A DNA stretch of 37,675 bases from an uncultured Flavobacteriaceae bacterium (lineage in GTDB: Bacteria > Bacteroidota > Bacteroidia > Flavobacteriales > Flavobacteriaceae), in NCBI GenBank assembly GCA_905479625.1, contig CAJQNF010000132.1, forward strand, positions 1 through 37,675, given 5' to 3'. Both the position numbers and the translations under genes were made by a program. The notes beneath the pieces were generated by a model. That model ran no database searches. It was not told the origin of the DNA and was given only the letters and a program-made list of their open reading frames with translations. Shown piece by piece: positions 9,656 to 18,118 of this stretch (the stretch's first letter is position 1; every line of letters starts with the position of its first letter).

Positions 9656-9742
9656 GTGGCAAAAATAAACTAAAAAATGAGACTATGAATTTTAATGAAA
9701 TTGAAATTTTCGTCTTATTTTTATGCACTTAGCAAAAAATCA

Positions 9743-12142
9743 ATGATCATGACCAAACTTCTAATTCCTTTACTATTCCTTATCTTTTTTCAACCTTTAC
9801 ATGCTCAGTTTTTATCTGATAATCATAATGTTACACAACAAAAAGGCTTGTTTAATTTTCACTATGACCAGAAAGAAGACAAGGTTTTTTTGGAGGTGAA
9901 AGATCTTGATCAGGAATTTCTATATGTGAACGCCTTATCTGAGGGCCTGGGGTCTAACGACATAGGCTTGGATCGTGGACAATTAGGGGGAGGTGTTGTC
10001 GTTTTTTTTCAAAGGGCAGGCAATAAATTGCTGCTTATTCAGCCGAATCAACGTTACCGTGCTTTAACAGAAAATGAAAAAGAGAAAAATTCCATCGAGG
10101 AGGCTTTCGCCAAGTCTGTTTTATTCGGATTTGAAATCCAGGAAGAAAAAGGCGGTATTTTACTGATCGATATTACTGATTTCCTGATTCGGGATGCTCA
10201 TGGGGTTGCGGAAAAATTAAAGAGAGCTGATCAAGGTAGTTATAGCTTGAACAAAAGCCGGAGTGCCATGCATATGCAAAGAACAAAGGCTTTTCCGAAG
10301 AATGTTGAGTTTGATGCTATTTTGACATTTACGGGCCAGGCAAAAGGAAGAGAAATTTACAGTGTGAGTCCTGATGCAGGGTCTGTTTCTGTGCATCAAC
10401 ATCATTCTTTTGTTGCACTTCCGGACGAAGGCTTTAAACCAAGAGTTTTTGATGCTCGGTCTGGAGGCTATCCAATGAGTTATATGGATTATGCCACTCC
10501 GGTGAACGAGCCTATAGTAAAAAAATTCATTTACAAACATAGACTAGAGAAAAAAGACCCAAGTGCTGCAGTAAGTGAAGCCAAGGAGCCGATTATTTAT
10601 TATTTGGATCCCGGAACACCCGAGCCAGTGCGTTCAGCATTATTGGAAGGCGCCTCTTGGTGGAATCAGGCTTTTGAGGCTGCAGGTTATTTAAATGCAT
10701 TTCAAGTGAAAATCTTACCGGATGACGCAGATCCTTTGGACTTGAGATATAATGTAATCCAATGGGTGCACAGGTCAACCAGAGGGTGGAGTTATGGGAG
10801 TAGTATATCAGATCCCAGAACAGGTGAGATCATTAAAGGACACGTTAGCTTAGGTTCTTTGCGGATCAGGCAAGATTTTTTAATAGCACAAGGGCTGCAG
10901 GCACCTTATGCAAATGATGAGACAAATGATCAATTTGCGATGGAAATGGCCTTGGCCAGAATACGACAGTTGTCTGCTCATGAAGTTGGGCATACACTGG
11001 GATTTACCCATAATTTTGCGGCAAGTACCCAGAACAGAGCTTCTGTAATGGATTATCCTCACCCTTTGATAAAAGTTGCAGGTGATCGACTTGACTTTTC
11101 AAATGCGTATGCGACAGGAATTGGAGATTGGGATAAAATTACGGTAACCTATGCTTACGGGGAGTTTCCAGAGAATGAAGCTGAAAATTTACAGCGGATT
11201 CTAGATGATGCCGACAGCAAAGGATTCAGGTACATTTCTGATAGTGACGCAAGAGCATCGGGAGGTGCACATGCCTACGCTCATCTCTGGGACAATGGAA
11301 ATGATATTGTTAAGGAACTGGATAATGTTCTGGAGGTTCGAAAATTCTCCATGGACAGATTTTCTTTGGATAATATTAAAAAGGATGATGCCTATACCAG
11401 TCTGGAAGATGTTTTTGTTCCGCTGTATTTTTATCACAGGTACCAAACGGAGGCTGTCAGTAAAATAATTGGTGGATTGGACTATACCTATGCTGTCAAG
11501 GGAGATGCTTCGCTTGTTGTCAAGCAATTAGATCCGAAAGAACAAAGAAGGGCACTAAACACCTTGATGAAAACCGTGGATGTACAAACGTTAAAAATTC
11601 CATCTCAGGTGCTCGAACTCTTTCCGCCACGAGCCATAGGTTATAGCAGATCAAGAGAATCATTTAAAAGTAAATTAGGCGTCGCTTTTGATCCTTTTGG
11701 TGCAGCCGCTACAGCGTCAGATGTAACCTTCTCTTTTATTCTCCACCCGGAAAGGGCTTCAAGGTTAATTGCAAATAAAAGCATGAATGATGAGCAATTA
11801 GGTCTCAACGAAGTATTTGATGTGCTTTTTGAGCATTCGTTTAAAAAGACACATAAGAACCTTCAGGATTCGGAATTACAGCAAGTGATCAATGAACAGT
11901 TGTTACATAATATTTTTCGCTTATTAGTGAGTGATCAGGTCTATCCCCAGGTAAAAGCAATTGGATTTAAAAAATTAAAAGAGCTGGTTAGTTACCTCGA
12001 GAACCACAAATCCAAAGAAACTCAAAAAGAGATGGATGCTTATTGGGCCGAAACAATTCGAAAATTTATAAAGGACCCATCTATTGAATACACCAAAGTG
12101 GCGCCAAAAATTCCAGATGGTTCTCCAATAGGCATGCACTAA
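9743..12142 (+). CDS. Exported zinc metalloprotease (DUF5117/DUF4953 type)
   Basis: A large exported metallopeptidase. The signal peptide TKLLIPLLFLIFFQPLHAQ is followed by about 380 residues of DUF5118/DUF5117-like beta-rich sequence. A metzincin-like active site follows: HEVGHTLGFTH (zinc ligands two His plus a third His, catalytic Glu), with a methionine turn SVMDYP about 13 residues later. About 360 residues of uncharacterised C-terminus remain. I choose the ATG at 9743 (or 9749) because it puts the signal peptide at the N-terminus; an upstream ATG at 9695 would add 16 residues and leave only 39 bases to divergent prfB. It heads an operon for peptide and amino acid breakdown and probably degrades extracellular or periplasmic protein. 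Confidence 0.88.
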   Translation: MIMTKLLIPLLFLIFFQPLHAQFLSDNHNVTQQKGLFNFHYDQKEDKVFLEVKDLDQEFLYVNALSEGLGSNDIGLDRGQLGGGVVVFFQRAGNKLLLIQPNQRYRALTENEKEKNSIEEAFAKSVLFGFEIQEEKGGILLIDITDFLIRDAHGVAEKLKRADQGSYSLNKSRSAMHMQRTKAFPKNVEFDAILTFTGQAKGREIYSVSPDAGSVSVHQHHSFVALPDEGFKPRVFDARSGGYPMSYMDYATPVNEPIVKKFIYKHRLEKKDPSAAVSEAKEPIIYYLDPGTPEPVRSALLEGASWWNQAFEAAGYLNAFQVKILPDDADPLDLRYNVIQWVHRSTRGWSYGSSISDPRTGEIIKGHVSLGSLRIRQDFLIAQGLQAPYANDETNDQFAMEMALARIRQLSAHEVGHTLGFTHNFAASTQNRASVMDYPHPLIKVAGDRLDFSNAYATGIGDWDKITVTYAYGEFPENEAENLQRILDDADSKGFRYISDSDARASGGAHAYAHLWDNGNDIVKELDNVLEVRKFSMDRFSLDNIKKDDAYTSLEDVFVPLYFYHRYQTEAVSKIIGGLDYTYAVKGDASLVVKQLDPKEQRRALNTLMKTVDVQTLKIPSQVLELFPPRAIGYSRSRESFKSKLGVAFDPFGAAATASDVTFSFILHPERASRLIANKSMNDEQLGLNEVFDVLFEHSFKKTHKNLQDSELQQVINEQLLHNIFRLLVSDQVYPQVKAIGFKKLKELVSYLENHKSKETQKEMDAYWAETIRKFIKDPSIEYTKVAPKIPDGSPIGMH

Positions 12143-12154
12143 TTTTTAGCTATT

Positions 12155-13378
12155 ATGAAAAAATGGTTTTCACAATTTGGTCCTGCAACACTTATAGCAG
12201 CTGCATTTATCGGTCCTGGTACCGTGACGCTTTGCAGTATTGCGGGAGTTAATTTTGGATATCATTTACTATGGGCGATGCTTCTGTCGATAGGCGCTAC
12301 CATTGTTTTACAGGAAATGTCTGCTCGACTCGGTCTGATCAGTCAAAAAGGATTATCGGAAGTTTTACGTCAGGAAATAAAACAACCCCTGATGAGAACC
12401 GGGGCCATTATTTTGGTGCTATCTGCCATTATCATAGGAAATGCGGCCTATGAAGCAGGGAATATAAGTGGAGGTGTTTTGGGCTTGTCGGCCATTTTCC
12501 CGAATAATAAACTCAGTTTTCTAGACTGGGAGATCAATATATTGAGCCTGATTCTAGGAGCTATGGCTTTCGGTATATTGTATAATGGAAGTTATAAGGT
12601 TTTGGAAAGAAGCCTTATTGGACTTGTGTTTTTGATGAGCATTTCTTTTTTAGTGACTGCGTTTATGACAAGACCTGATCTTGAGGCGGTTTTTAAGGGG
12701 CTTTTTATCCCTTCTATTCCTGAAAATGGCTTATTGACCATTGTTGGACTTATTGGAACTACAGTGGTCCCTTACAACCTTTTTTTGCATGCCTCAATTG
12801 TAAAGGAAAAGTGGAAAGATCCAGCAGATTTAAAGTTTGTTGTAAAAGATACTATCATTGCCATTGTCGTAGGAGGAATGGTGTCACTTGCCATTATTAT
12901 ATCTGCAGCAGGCTCTCAGCTCAGCGAGATTCAAAATGCAGCGGACCTTGCTGAAGGATTGGTTCCGCTATATGGAGCTTCAGCCAAATATTTTATGGCC
13001 TTGGGTCTTTTTGCCTCTGGAATTACTTCAGCAATTACTGCCCCATTAGCTGCGGCATATGTGGCAAAAGGAATATTTGGGTGGAAAGAAGGGATGAAAT
13101 CAAAAAAAATGAGGTCAGTATGGATGTTTATTCTTTTTTTAGGGGTTCTATTTTCGTCTTTGAACATTAAATCCATTGAGATCATTAAGTTTGCTCAGGT
13201 TACAAATGGCATCTTATTACCTGTTATTAGCGGTTTTCTTTTATGGGTTATGAATAAAAGAAGCGTTTTAGGAAGTTACGTCAATAACCGGACTCAAAAT
13301 ATTTTTGGATTTATTATCTTAGGCGTGGCTATATTTCTTGGTGCGAAGAGTATTTGGAAAGTGTTTTATACGATGTAA
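12155..13378 (+). CDS. NRAMP-fold transporter lacking the canonical metal site (5-oxoprolinase-associated)
   Basis: A 407-residue inner-membrane protein with about 11 hydrophobic segments and overall NRAMP similarity. True NRAMP metal transporters bind Mn/Fe with DPGN in TM1 and a methionine in the MPH motif of TM6. Here TM1 reads IGPGTVT (Gly20 and Thr23 replace Asp and Asn) and TM6 reads TTVVPYN (Val205 and Tyr207 replace Met and His). Metal transport is therefore doubtful. The gene starts 12 bases after the protease gene and ends 2 bases before pxpA. B. subtilis also has an NRAMP-like gene, ycsG, beside its pxpA homologue ycsF. A transporter for 5-oxoproline or another amino acid derivative is a reasonable inference, not a demonstrated function. 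Confidence 0.85.
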   Translation: MKKWFSQFGPATLIAAAFIGPGTVTLCSIAGVNFGYHLLWAMLLSIGATIVLQEMSARLGLISQKGLSEVLRQEIKQPLMRTGAIILVLSAIIIGNAAYEAGNISGGVLGLSAIFPNNKLSFLDWEINILSLILGAMAFGILYNGSYKVLERSLIGLVFLMSISFLVTAFMTRPDLEAVFKGLFIPSIPENGLLTIVGLIGTTVVPYNLFLHASIVKEKWKDPADLKFVVKDTIIAIVVGGMVSLAIIISAAGSQLSEIQNAADLAEGLVPLYGASAKYFMALGLFASGITSAITAPLAAAYVAKGIFGWKEGMKSKKMRSVWMFILFLGVLFSSLNIKSIEIIKFAQVTNGILLPVISGFLLWVMNKRSVLGSYVNNRTQNIFGFIILGVAIFLGAKSIWKVFYTM

Positions 13379-13380
13379 GT

Positions 13381-14094
13381 ATGGATATTAATTGTGATTT
13401 GGGCGAAGGAATTGGTAATGATCATGTGATCATGCCTTACCTGGGTTCCTGTAATATTGTCTGTGGAGGACATACAGGAGATATAGACAGTATGAGAAGT
13501 ACGGTTCGATTGGCTAAAGAACATGGTGTTAAAATCGGTGCGCATCCTTCTTTTTTTGATCGAGAAAATTTTGGAAGGAAAGAGATAGAAGTTCCAAGAG
13601 AATTATTGAAAAGTCAATTGATAGCGCAAATATCGAGTCTCAAAGAAATTGCAACATCATTTGGGGTGAACCTTCATCATGTTAAACCGCATGGAGCACT
13701 TTACAATTTGGCTGCAAAATCAGTTGATATGGCAGAATTGATCATTGATGTAATGAAAAACCTTGACGATAACATCTTCCTGTATGTACCATTTAATTCA
13801 GTGATTGAAAGTGTAGCGAAAAAGAGAGGCGTTTCCAGTTGTGTTGAAGCTTTTGCCGATCGAAATTACAATGATGATTTCACACTAGTTTCAAGAGCGG
13901 AGCCATATGCAGTGATCAATGATCCGAAAGAAATTAAGCTAAGGATAGATGAGATGATCAGGCAGCAGGCGATAACATCCATCAATGGGATAAAAAAGAA
14001 AGCTGACATACAGACGATTTGCCTGCATGGCGATCATCCGAATGCGGTTCAGATAGCGAAGTTATTATATAATTTTAAAGACCAAATCAATTGA
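13381..14094 (+). CDS. pxpA: 5-oxoprolinase subunit PxpA (LamB/YcsF family)
   Basis: A 237-residue subunit of the ATP-dependent bacterial 5-oxoprolinase, which opens pyroglutamate to L-glutamate. The family signature is plain: DINCDLGEG at the N-terminus, CGGHTGD (residues 28-34), IGAHPSFFD (52-60), FGR (64-66) and VKPHGALYN. I start at the ATG at 13381, 2 bases after the transporter stop, because MDINCDLGEG is the usual N-terminus; an in-frame ATG at 13354 would overlap the transporter gene. pxpB follows with a 4-base overlap. Confidence 0.95.
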   Translation: MDINCDLGEGIGNDHVIMPYLGSCNIVCGGHTGDIDSMRSTVRLAKEHGVKIGAHPSFFDRENFGRKEIEVPRELLKSQLIAQISSLKEIATSFGVNLHHVKPHGALYNLAAKSVDMAELIIDVMKNLDDNIFLYVPFNSVIESVAKKRGVSSCVEAFADRNYNDDFTLVSRAEPYAVINDPKEIKLRIDEMIRQQAITSINGIKKKADIQTICLHGDHPNAVQIAKLLYNFKDQIN

Positions 14095-14822
14095 ATTTAT
14101 ATAAATTGACATATAAGCCATTAGGAAGTATTGCGGTACTTATTCAATGGCCAAAAAAGATTGAAAAAGATATTTTAAAAAATATCAGCCTTTTCAGGCA
14201 CAAGATCCAAGTGGATATGGGTGAATATGTGTTGGAAACAGTTCCCGCGTATAATTCCCTGACCGTTTTTTTCGATACGGCCAGAATCAAATACTCTGGC
14301 GTGGTGTCTGATCTTAAAGAGATTTATGCCTCTAAAGATCAAAAACTGCTTACTGCAAATAAATTATGGAAGATCCCGGTATGCTACGAAGATGAGTTTG
14401 GATTGGACCTGGGTTTATTGGCAAAGGCCAAAAAACTGACAAAGAAAAAAATTATAGCCCTTCACAGCGAACCTCTGTATGATGTTTATTTTATTGGATT
14501 TTTACCCGGATTTCTTTACTTAGGAGGATTGGCAGAATCGCTGGAATATCCAAGAAAAGATAGGCCCAGGATGAATATTAGAAAAGGAGACGTGGCATTG
14601 GCCGGAAATCAAACCGGTATTTATCCAACAGGAAGCCCTGGAGGCTGGAATATTATTGGAAATTCTCCTTTGCGTTTTTTTAATGTGGATGTGTTTCCGC
14701 CTTGTTTTGCCGTGGCCGGAGATAAGGTGAAATTTGTGCCTGTTGACAAATTGAAATATGAAGCGATCAAGAAAGAAGTCGAGGCTGGTATTTACAAAAT
14801 AGAAAGTGAGATTTATGGATAA
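14091..14822 (+). CDS. pxpB: 5-oxoprolinase subunit PxpB (KipI / allophanate hydrolase subunit 1 family)
   Basis: A 243-residue PxpB subunit, somewhat longer than E. coli YbgJ (218). Family motifs: LHSEPLYDVYFIGFLPGF, YLGGL, TPRR-like YPRKDRPR, and NQTGIYPTGSPGGWNIIG. It starts at TTG 14091-14093, overlapping the pxpA stop as TTGA; the next in-frame ATG would remove the conserved N-terminal domain, so TTG is the credible start. With PxpC it forms the part that, together with PxpA, hydrolyses 5-oxoproline using ATP. Its stop overlaps the start of pxpC. Confidence 0.93.
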   Translation: MNLYKLTYKPLGSIAVLIQWPKKIEKDILKNISLFRHKIQVDMGEYVLETVPAYNSLTVFFDTARIKYSGVVSDLKEIYASKDQKLLTANKLWKIPVCYEDEFGLDLGLLAKAKKLTKKKIIALHSEPLYDVYFIGFLPGFLYLGGLAESLEYPRKDRPRMNIRKGDVALAGNQTGIYPTGSPGGWNIIGNSPLRFFNVDVFPPCFAVAGDKVKFVPVDKLKYEAIKKEVEAGIYKIESEIYG

Positions 14823-15717
14823 CAATATATTGATATTAGCAGAAGGGATGCATTCTTCTATCCAGGATCTGGGAAGGAAAGGATATCGTTCTTTTGGGGT
14901 GCCTATATCAGGGGCCATGGATAAGTACAGCGCCATTTTGGCCAACAAGTTGCTGAATAACGAGGAAAATTTACCTGTACTTGAGATGACCATGATCGGG
15001 CCTAAAATCATGTTTGAAGATCATTCGCTAATTGTGCTGACAGGAGCAGATATATCGCCGGAAATTAATGGATCTCCAATCAAGATGAACCAGGTTTATG
15101 AGGTCAAAACAAGTGACGTATTGAGTTTTGGCTCACTTTTAAGTGGGGTACGTTCTTATCTTGGCGTCAAGGGCGGATTTTTAACAGAGAATAAATTAAA
15201 AAGCTATTCTTATTATCAGGGAATCACATCACAGAAAAGTATTCAAAAGGGCGATCGCTTGAAGATTGCGTCCTACGATAATAATTTGAAGATGACCTCT
15301 TCTAAGATAAAGGTGAAAAGTTCACATTTTGATGTCAGTAAGCTGGAGGTGACCAAAGGCCCTGAATTTAATCGACTAACAAAGAAGCATCGTGAACTAC
15401 TGTTTTCAAAACGATTTAAGATCGGGGGCATGAACAACAGGATGGGATATCAGATAAAAAATATATTTCCAAAGTTGAAAGATGCAGAGATCATAACTTC
15501 CACTACAATTCCAGGAACAGTGCAACTTACCCCTTCAGGCACCTTGATCATTTTAATGCGGGATTGCCCAACAACGGGTGGGTATCCCAGGATTTTACAA
15601 TTAACCGATATAGCCATCAATCAATTAGCTCAAAAAAAAGAGAATGATGTTTTTAAATTCGATCTGGAAAGCAGTTTCGATTTTCTTGGCCGATTGGTAA
15701 GCCGCTTTAAAGAGTGA
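14815..15717 (+). CDS. pxpC: 5-oxoprolinase subunit PxpC (KipA / biotin-dependent carboxyltransferase-like)
   Basis: A 300-residue PxpC subunit. Motifs: SIQDLGRKGYRSFGVPISGAMD at the N-terminus, LTGADISPEING, YLGVKGGF, a central GGMNNRMGYQ and the C-terminal CPTTGGYPRI. I start at the ATG at 14815 inside the end of pxpB (8-base overlap); a GTG at 14806 in the same frame is also possible. The overlapping arrangement of pxpA, pxpB and pxpC points to co-ordinated expression of one enzyme complex. Confidence 0.94.
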   Translation: MDNNILILAEGMHSSIQDLGRKGYRSFGVPISGAMDKYSAILANKLLNNEENLPVLEMTMIGPKIMFEDHSLIVLTGADISPEINGSPIKMNQVYEVKTSDVLSFGSLLSGVRSYLGVKGGFLTENKLKSYSYYQGITSQKSIQKGDRLKIASYDNNLKMTSSKIKVKSSHFDVSKLEVTKGPEFNRLTKKHRELLFSKRFKIGGMNNRMGYQIKNIFPKLKDAEIITSTTIPGTVQLTPSGTLIILMRDCPTTGGYPRILQLTDIAINQLAQKKENDVFKFDLESSFDFLGRLVSRFKE

Positions 15718-16771: not shown

Positions 16772-18118
16772 ATGAAAAATTATTTATTGACGTTGTTGCT
16801 GATAGTAAGTTCATCCGTTGTTGGTCAAACCCAAGTTTCAGAGATGCTAACTGAGATCGCGGAAGCTCCTTCTGCAGAAAGGATAGAAAAAGATATTAAT
16901 AAGCTAGTTGATTTTGGAACGCGTCATACATTGTCTGATACGGTATCAGAAACAAGGGGTATTGGGGCAGCCCGACGCTGGATCAAAGGGGAGTTCGACC
17001 GAATTTCAGAAGCATGTAAAGGATGCCTTGAAGTTCAATATCAGTCAACGCTTGAACCAAAAAATGAGAGAAGAATTATAAAGGATACCTATATAGTCAA
17101 CGTGATGGCGATTCAAAGAGGTACGGTTTATCCGAATAGTTATGTGATCATGTCGGGTGATATTGATTCCAGGGTTTCTGACCCCAATAATTTTACAGAC
17201 GACTCTCCGGGTGCCAATGATAATGCATCGGGTATGGCCGGAACTATCGAAGCAGCAAGGGTTTTGTCAAAATATCAGTTTCCGGTGTCCATCATATATG
17301 TGGGGTTATCGGGGGAGGAGCAAGGATTATTTGGGGGTAAACATCTGGCCCAAAAAGCGAAAAAAGAAGGATGGGATATTATTGGCGTGATTAATAATGA
17401 CATGATTGGTAATTATCATGGAATTGATGGGGTCGTTGATAATACGACCTTTAGAGTTTTTTCTGAAGCCATTTCTATGAGTTTAACAGAAAAAGAAAGA
17501 AGGGCGATGAGGTTTTATGGGGGTGAAGTTGATGGACCTTCAAGACAGTTGGCCAGATATATCGATAAAGTAACCGACGAATATATGACTAACCTTGACG
17601 CAATTATGATTTACAGACTGGACAGGTTTGGAAGAGGAGGTCATCACAGACCTTTTAACGACGAGGGTTTTACAGGTGTTCGGATCATGGAAACGCATGA
17701 GAATTACAATAGACAGCATCAGGATATAAGAGAAGAAAACGGGATTAGTTATGGAGATGTGATAGAAGGCGTTGATTTTGACTATGCTGCTAAATTAACT
17801 GCAGTAAATGCATTAACACTGGCTTCTTTAGCCTCTGCTCCCGAAGCGCCAAAAAATGTCAGTATTGGAGGTGCTGTAGAAGCTTCCGCAAGATTGCAAT
17901 GGGATAAAAGTGATGATAAGGGACTCTTAGGCTATAAAGTTTATTGGAGGAAAACAACTTCTTCTCAATGGGAGTCTAGCCGTTTTATTGGGAAAAAGAA
18001 TAGCTATGTATTTAAGAATTTGGTGATTGATAACTATCTTTTTGGCGTCGCCAGTGTTGGTGAAAATGGTGCAGAAAGTTTGATCGCATTTCCATACAAA
18101 CTGATTCCAAGAAATTGA
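16772..18118 (+). CDS. Exported M28-family peptidase with C-terminal fibronectin III-like domain
   Basis: A 448-residue exported peptidase: signal peptide to about residue 19 (ending VVGQ), M28 zinc peptidase domain (about 40-350) and a fibronectin type III-like domain (about 358-440, starting APKNVSIGG). Visible M28 residues are GANDNASG (bridging Asp150), LSGEEQGLFG (Glu182/Glu183), NNDMIGN (Asp210) and ETHENYN (His309). The first zinc ligand, normally His in a GHxDS motif, is Asp130 in SGDIDSR. This may alter metal use or activity. Known M28 enzymes are mostly aminopeptidases. The position after the threonine aldolase gene (9 bases) suggests trimming of peptides made by the operon's large protease. 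Confidence 0.87.
   Translation: MKNYLLTLLLIVSSSVVGQTQVSEMLTEIAEAPSAERIEKDINKLVDFGTRHTLSDTVSETRGIGAARRWIKGEFDRISEACKGCLEVQYQSTLEPKNERRIIKDTYIVNVMAIQRGTVYPNSYVIMSGDIDSRVSDPNNFTDDSPGANDNASGMAGTIEAARVLSKYQFPVSIIYVGLSGEEQGLFGGKHLAQKAKKEGWDIIGVINNDMIGNYHGIDGVVDNTTFRVFSEAISMSLTEKERRAMRFYGGEVDGPSRQLARYIDKVTDEYMTNLDAIMIYRLDRFGRGGHHRPFNDEGFTGVRIMETHENYNRQHQDIREENGISYGDVIEGVDFDYAAKLTAVNALTLASLASAPEAPKNVSIGGAVEASARLQWDKSDDKGLLGYKVYWRKTTSSQWESSRFIGKKNSYVFKNLVIDNYLFGVASVGENGAESLIAFPYKLIPRN

Follow-up and report, generated by a model that had tools for sequence, protein, structure and literature searches.

The window analysed here is a stretch of 37,675 nucleotides from an uncultured Flavobacteriaceae bacterium (GenBank assembly GCA_905479625.1, contig CAJQNF010000132.1, positions 1 to 37,675 of the forward strand), and it carries a gene for an Nramp-related transporter immediately ahead of the genes for a 5-oxoprolinase. 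The transporter gene is an open reading frame of 407 amino acids (12155..13378, + strand), and it is followed on the same strand by pxpA, encoding 5-oxoprolinase subunit A (13381..14094; PF03746), pxpB, encoding subunit B (14091..14822; PF02682), and pxpC, encoding a subunit C-like protein (14806..15717; PF02626). The ATG of pxpA at 13381 lies 2 bases past the TAA of the transporter gene (13376-13378), the TTG start of pxpB at 14091 overlaps the pxpA stop codon (14092-14094), and the beginning of pxpC, whether taken as GTG 14806 or ATG 14815, overlaps the end of pxpB with its stop codon at 14820-14822. This is the arrangement given in an original prediction made from the letters of the stretch, and the coordinates agree with it. 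The Pfam families LamB_YcsF, CT_C_D and CT_A_B were matched in the order A, B, C, and all three PxpABC subunits are thus present; PxpA and PxpB scored above their NCBIfam cut-offs and PxpC below (TIGR00724, 217.1 vs 230.2).

The transporter was matched by the Pfam Nramp model PF01566 along nearly all of the model (306 bits, 4.4e-91, cut-off 29.8), and the NCBIfam subfamily models MntH (152.9 vs 430 needed) and nramp (100.5 vs 272.5) were not reached. An AlphaFold2 model built from 19 sequences had a mean pLDDT (predicted local distance difference test) of 82.8, and the top match of this model in the PDB was 6d91, DraNramp (Z 48.4, root-mean-square deviation 2.4, 384 residues). The 26 top rows returned by VIA-align were all Nramp-family entries, including EleNRMT, NRAT and a model of YcsG, and other transporters of the same fold ranked next, with AgcS, AdiC, KimA, CHT1 and ApcT first, a placing that fits the Nramp variant of the LeuT fold. 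Likeness of fold alone says nothing on the substrate. The assembly of the window genome is 84% complete and gave 3 Nramp matches, the two other Nramp-fold proteins (L002 and L003 of genome G000) having IGTGSV and IGVSHL in the first transmembrane helix (TM1).

The residues at the substrate site were compared by HMMER alignment to DraNramp, in which 'aafigpgtvt' of the window protein stood opposite 'aymdpgnfat', and 'ligttvvpyn' opposite 'iigatvmphv'. Because HMMER pairs these segments, the TM1 motif G20-P21-G22-T23 (12212..12223, +) is taken to replace DPGN, and the TM6 motif V205-P206-Y207 (12767..12775, +) to replace MPH, as had been claimed for this protein at the outset. Both motifs fall at helix breaks of the AlphaFold2 model, helix 1 being interrupted at residues 18-21 and helix 6 at 203-206. 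The site columns were then read in 211 aligned sequences sorted by TM1 motif; this sorting fixes the TM1 percentages by construction and leaves the remaining columns unaffected. 'Window-type' rows are here those GPGT rows that belong neither to the haloarchaeal sub-group nor to two further sub-groups, and most, not all, of them are pxp-linked. The columns of DraNramp M230 and H232 held Met and His in 37/37 canonical rows, and Val and Tyr in 113/113 window-type rows. At the conserved TM3 Glu of metal transporters, kept in 37/37 canonical rows, the window protein has N103 (12461..12463, +), and Asn was found in 113/113 window-type rows; the four GPGT groups and the YcsG group had it in every row. 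The TM9 Arg column of metal transporters is occupied by W323 in the window protein and mostly by Trp across the GPGT groups. Note, however, that the TM3 Asp column stays acidic, with E100 in the window protein and mostly Glu in the GPGT rows, which speaks against a clean loss. Q348, equivalent to the canonical Gln, was kept in GPGT rows and was Gly in the YcsG group, and G20, N103, Y207 and N351 were common to the GPGT groups and the YcsG group. The GPGT motif recurs across aligned relatives and named loci, and the idea that it is a peculiarity of one genome was rejected.

Linkage to two kinds of cyclic-amide hydrolase

The neighbourhood of the gene was examined in a sample of 247 Bacteroidota genomes. 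With a window-type profile (E <= 8.2e-165), 30 window-type genes proper were found, and 29 of these lay no more than 1.3 kb from pxpA and on the same strand. The proximity of Nramp gene and pxpA is not due to chance, and the proposal that an Nramp branch without the metal site is tied to 5-oxoprolinase genes was borne out. The single gene away from pxpA (in G053) was followed by a gamma-glutamyltransferase gene. The named loci examined were the best 80 of 594 confirmed matches, those nearest to the window protein; pxpA lay downstream in 75 of them and was not present within ~5 kb in 4, and in the last one the record ended 51 bases past the gene.

A second enzyme was found beside more distant members of the same branch. 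Ten records were opened of the 23 listed for the nearest haloarchaeal relatives on plasmids (43-49% identity), and in 9/10 HyuA was encoded directly downstream, followed by HyuB, one pair spanning the record start; the control genome of Haloferax volcanii gave matches for Nramp and HyuB and none for PxpA. HyuA/HyuB, or a fused form, also occurred near several members of another Bacteroidota sub-branch with VPYN[IL]FLG in TM6, and at one locus (L209) a fused Hydantoinase_A/B protein of 1288 amino acids was encoded directly upstream of the Nramp gene, the two frames abutting. The Pfam families that match PxpABC are not those that match HyuA/HyuB, and on this ground the two enzymes were taken as unrelated. 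The new observation is therefore that the GPGT branch is tied to two ATP-dependent cyclic-amide hydrolase kinds, PxpABC in Bacteroidota, and HyuA/HyuB or its fused form in haloarchaea and other Bacteroidota, and the link of this one branch to the second oxoprolinase/lactamase kind is stronger evidence than the window itself.

Enzyme and transporter also occurred together across genomes. All 54 genomes with a GPGT gene, which represent 27 genera, carried one of the two enzymes (pxpA in 39, hyuB in 15), and by place, on the same strand, 29 of the 54 genes had pxpA no further than 1.3 kb away and 10 had hyuB no further than 5 kb away. In the whole sample, pxpA was over the cut-off in 51 genomes, hyuB in 35 and either one in 86; the two were never found together, as if the enzyme kinds were mutually exclusive within these genomes. 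A further 25 genomes bore an enzyme and neither of the two Nramp types that adjoin pxpA in this sample. A second sample, which comprised 178 genomes of the class and overlapped in part with the first, added two GPGT genomes, one with pxpA adjacent (G317) and one with a fused hyuB on a different contig (G247). In this second sample pxpA and hyuB were each present in 15 genomes, and only 1 hyuB genome (G247) had a GPGT gene, and hyuB is therefore by itself no predictor of the transporter.

The Hyu-linked loci bear on the alternative of a broader or different specificity within the pathway: the protein might carry glutamine, glutamate, a hydantoin, or a pyroglutamyl or gamma-glutamyl peptide, and 5-oxoproline would be one substrate among several or an internal product. 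For HyuA/HyuB of a haloarchaeal locus (L192), the nearest NCBIfam models were caprolactamase subunits, with scores below the cut-offs, for which reason no specific enzyme name was accepted, and the nearest PDB entry was N-methylhydantoinase. Next in the haloarchaeal Hyu loci there is often a gene annotated as Asp/Glu racemase, with a Pfam Amdase match, and of the unlinked Nramp genes one (L097) is followed by a gamma-glutamyltransferase gene and another (L213) by an M28 peptidase gene, while L206 adjoins 2-oxoacid oxidoreductase genes; all of this would suit a broader substrate range. Set against it, PxpABC is a 5-oxoprolinase and is the nearest neighbour in the pxp-linked part of the branch, and genetic data on Campylobacter (PMC12795558) and Corynebacterium (PMC13274462), as reported there, indicate 5-oxoproline itself. 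A broader or different substrate is considered very unlikely. As a separate observation, L206, L207 and L208, which belong to a GPGT sub-branch with GPGTVLTC and VTYN or VAYN, adjoin 2-oxoacid:ferredoxin oxidoreductase-like genes, the Pfam evidence for these being from L206 only, and in their genomes hyuB is on a different contig.

In Flavobacteriaceae, the gene just upstream of the Nramp gene often encodes DUF2891, a family of unknown function (L107, L112, L127, L146, L161, L166, L181, L184, L066 and L144). The unbiased figure is that of the phylum sample, in which DUF2891 lay directly upstream of the Nramp gene in 6/30 window-type genes. Among the named loci, 10 upstream genes were tested of 16, partly picked by length, and gave 9 DUF2891 proteins and 1 TRAP permease; at L154 the upstream gene was, by eye, DEAD-box helicase-like, not DUF2891. 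A set of 79 genomes, made up of the 54 with a GPGT gene and the 25 enzyme-bearing ones with neither Nramp type, contained DUF2891 in 10, 9 of them GPGT genomes. In G108 it was encoded just upstream of a fused oxoprolinase-like gene, which itself precedes the Nramp gene, in the GPGT genomes G064 and G158 it was present and not next to the Nramp gene, and in the window genome none was seen by profile search. DUF2891 has a place in another system as well, as it comes third, after DUF969 and DUF979, in Campylobacter cj0552-4, a mutant of which is described as no longer growing on 5-oxoproline, according to a preliminary test (PMC12795558), and a table in PMC10040529 gives similar cluster counts for HyuB-type oxoprolinase, DUF969, DUF979 and DUF2891. 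It is therefore a companion of two different suspected 5-oxoproline transporters, the GPGT Nramp protein and the DUF969/DUF979 pair (cj0552-3), which differ in protein family. A complementary distribution of the two transporters found no support, as the 25 enzyme-only genomes also lacked DUF979; this family was found in 0/79 genomes by a search for DUF979 and not for DUF969, the control of which matched in 3/14 genomes, in one of them above the cut-off.

In the window a DUF4953 met-zincin is encoded at 9695-12142 and ends 12 bases ahead of the Nramp gene; downstream of pxpC, at 16772-18118, there is a gene for an M28 peptidase. In both, as judged by eye, Gln comes right after the likely signal peptide (compare the Bacteroidetes Q-rule).

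Relationship to YcsG and to metal transporters

The original prediction had drawn a parallel with ycsG of Bacillus subtilis. That gene, too, is Nramp-like and lies beside pxp genes, and like pxpT of Corynebacterium glutamicum it has been reported as required for the use of 5-oxoproline; to this extent the parallel stood, but the two do not form one branch. Two Nramp types adjoin pxpA in the Bacteroidota sample, type I being the window type, located upstream of pxpA, and type II, with GPGF and GGY, being located downstream. Type II was present at 6 loci, 5 of them ordered B-C-A-Nramp and 1 (L046/L092) with A-Nramp and the C gene ~5 kb away, and L038, one of the type II proteins of Bacteroidota, shares 64% identity with YcsG. 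All 7 genomes with type II had an enzyme, which was an adjacent pxpA in 6 and hyuB in 1, in which the Nramp match contains TAA. By structural alignment the window protein is only 20-21% identical to YcsG (9a52_A), and together with its separate position in the trees this led to the window gene being rejected as a YcsG orthologue. Plasmid-borne type II genes were found in Deinococcus, Rhizobium, Klebsiella, Lactiplantibacillus and Paracoccus, and in 5/5 opened loci pxp genes adjoined the Nramp gene in variable order; 4 of these 5 (L188-L191) also had genes for a putative hydro-lyase and a biotin carboxylase, placed between the pxp genes or following them. When a YcsG-type protein was searched by sequence against the PDB, there was no match at 1e-10, probably because YcsG is represented there by an integrative model; the fold search did bring up this entry.

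In a tree of 93 rows, a GPGT group of 54 (Shimodaira-Hasegawa-like approximate likelihood ratio test, SH-aLRT, 93), a canonical group of 11 (100) and a type II group of 12 (100) were recovered, the last at the end of a very long branch. A slower method, applied to 66 of these rows, again separated canonical (100/100) from type II (100/100), and placed the GPGT rows between type II and a block of metal and Mg transporters (97/98). As this position is intermediate and the tree has no root, the GPGT rows may represent a grade instead of a clade. The window protein was outside both the canonical DPGN group and the YcsG-type group, and two of the three outcomes named with the original prediction as refuting it, clustering with metal transporters and a DPGN motif in most pxp-linked homologues, were not seen; the pxp-linked homologues read had GPGT or GPGF, and none had DPGN. 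In the Bacteroidota sample, canonical Nramp frames (L005-L034) often had lengths of 625-687 amino acids, far beyond that of the Nramp domain.

Three known groups may be compared with the window type. The canonical Nramp/MntH proteins (DraNramp, BfraNramp) share with it the fold over the full length and a Gln in TM10, and differ by DPGN to GPGT, MPH to VPY, TM3 Glu to Asn and TM9 Arg to Trp, as well as by their gene neighbours and their place in the trees. The YcsG/PxpT proteins are like it in fold, in GPG in TM1, in the absence of the metal ligands, in the pxp operon, and in Asn in TM3, Tyr in TM6 and Asn in TM10, and they too are suspected or supported importers of 5-oxoproline; the YcsG group has GPGF and GGY and no Q348, in contrast to GPGT and VPY, and in Bacteroidota its gene comes after pxpA and not before it. 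EleNRMT is likewise Nramp-related outside the canonical group, with Trp in place of the TM6 His and Asn in TM10, but the TM1 Asp and a Glu in TM3 are still present in it and absent from the window type, where G20 takes the Asp position. In the grouping of Nramp-related proteins described in PMC12873925, MntG is placed in 'G-motif 3', and the groups besides this one and that of EleNRMT are called entirely uncharacterised.

Proposed substrate of the branch

From the observed gene order, the loss of metal ligands, the separate branch, and the linkage and co-occurrence with two oxoprolinase/lactamase kinds, we infer both a substrate and a direction of transport: the product of the window gene is quite probably a secondary importer with the LeuT fold that carries 5-oxoproline (pyroglutamate) and is made together with the ATP-dependent PxpABC. 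External 5-oxoproline would be taken up and then opened by PxpABC to glutamate. Members of the GPGT branch would in general carry 5-oxoproline, and those beside HyuA/HyuB either 5-oxoproline or another small cyclic amide. A GxG motif contacts the carboxylate in ApcT, AdiC and LeuT. A pocket predicted from this contact, and from the alignment columns, would have the backbone amides at the broken TM1 G-P-G-T hold the carboxylate, and N103, Y207, Q348 and N351 would contact the ring amide. As regards ion coupling, the TM3 Glu and a TM9 Arg of metal transporters are gone, but the TM3 Asp column is still acidic (E100). That the branch carries 5-oxoproline or a related amino acid derivative had been part of the original prediction, and linkage supports it; the idea of an Nramp-fold 5-oxoproline importer is not new, since it had been put forward for the YcsG/PxpT group, where it has some support (PMC10448178, PMC13274462). 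The GPGT branch itself, its tie to a second enzyme and DUF2891 beside an Nramp gene were not found described in the open-licence literature searched, and no open-licence paper was found that names both Nramp and hydantoinase.

Several findings weigh against 5-oxoproline import. Among the 54 GPGT genes, 15 were near neither pxpA nor hyuB, L203-L205 were unlinked despite their place inside the pxp-linked part of the tree, and no enzyme of either kind adjoined the plasmid copies in Natrononativus, Pseudoalteromonas and Qipengyuania. Hyu-family enzymes also comprise hydantoinases, caprolactamase and carboxylases, and the substrate of the Hyu-linked members is therefore not fixed. As to the counts, the threshold for a GPGT gene (E <= 4.3e-58) was chosen after viewing the list, 52 of the 54 genomes were read as sequence and two (G008 and G050) were called by score alone, and the Fisher value for co-occurrence of GPGT gene and enzyme (3e-32) ignores kinship. 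The window protein reached the NCBIfam equivalog NF037982, named Nramp family divalent metal transporter (89.7 bits, cut-off 50), and no DPGN-type Nramp was found among the 3 Nramp matches of the incomplete window genome. To these may be added the results on YcsG. In B. subtilis, cell Mn rose when ycsG was overexpressed, the promoter of the operon is bound by MntR and no triple mutant of mntH, mntA and ycsG could be obtained, and YcsG, earlier annotated as a 5-oxoproline importer, is called a Mn importer and renamed MntG in PMC10448178, where the earlier 5-oxoproline result (Niehaus 2017) is said to have left a polar effect possible. These data concern the other branch but weigh on the GPGT branch too, because G20, N103, Y207 and N351 are common to both.

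The protein could, on these grounds, be a divalent-metal importer with an altered site, as claimed for YcsG/MntG, supplying Mn or another metal during nitrogen handling or for a metal-needing oxoprolinase. The Nramp fold over the full length, the acidic E100 kept in TM3, the NF037982 match, the lack of a DPGN-type Nramp and the Mn data on YcsG would all agree with this, and EleNRMT, a Mg importer, demonstrates that an altered site is able to carry another metal (PMC12873925). EleNRMT itself retains the TM1 Asp, however, and the window protein has other residues at every one of these positions: TM1 Asp and Asn, TM3 Glu, TM6 Met and His, and a TM9 Arg. Deletion of pxpT in Corynebacterium glutamicum, the product of which is 50% identical to YcsG, abolishes growth on 5-oxoproline and spares growth on glucose, with growth on 5-oxoproline restored by a plasmid copy (PMC13274462); this evidence is of growth, not uptake, and its authors leave metal transport possible. 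Finally, two cyclic-amide hydrolase linkages and co-occurrence in 54/54 genomes are not readily explained by metal import, which is judged unlikely.

An import of 5-oxoproline would have a plausible source in these bacteria. Most Sec-exported proteins of Bacteroidota are reported to begin with pyroglutamate (PMC10653852), and their turnover could therefore free 5-oxoproline outside the inner membrane. Genes of the GPGT branch are publicly annotated as 'Nramp family divalent metal transporter', for example on haloarchaeal plasmids, and if they import an organic compound this annotation would mislead work on metal homeostasis. The conflict over YcsG, as Mn or 5-oxoproline importer, would in that case gain independent evidence from a second branch.

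A tentative and somewhat doubtful extension is that the GPG Nramp-related proteins, the GPGT and YcsG groups together, represent an old grade whose members imported organic anions, namely 5-oxoproline and similar cyclic amides, and that metal transport came later, through replacements of the kind G20 to Asp, N103 to Glu and Y207 to His. The Nramp metal site would then have been built in a pocket that formerly held a small carboxylate. The GPGT proteins would offer testable cases of how a single fold changed its cargo, metal ion on one side and small organic acid on the other.

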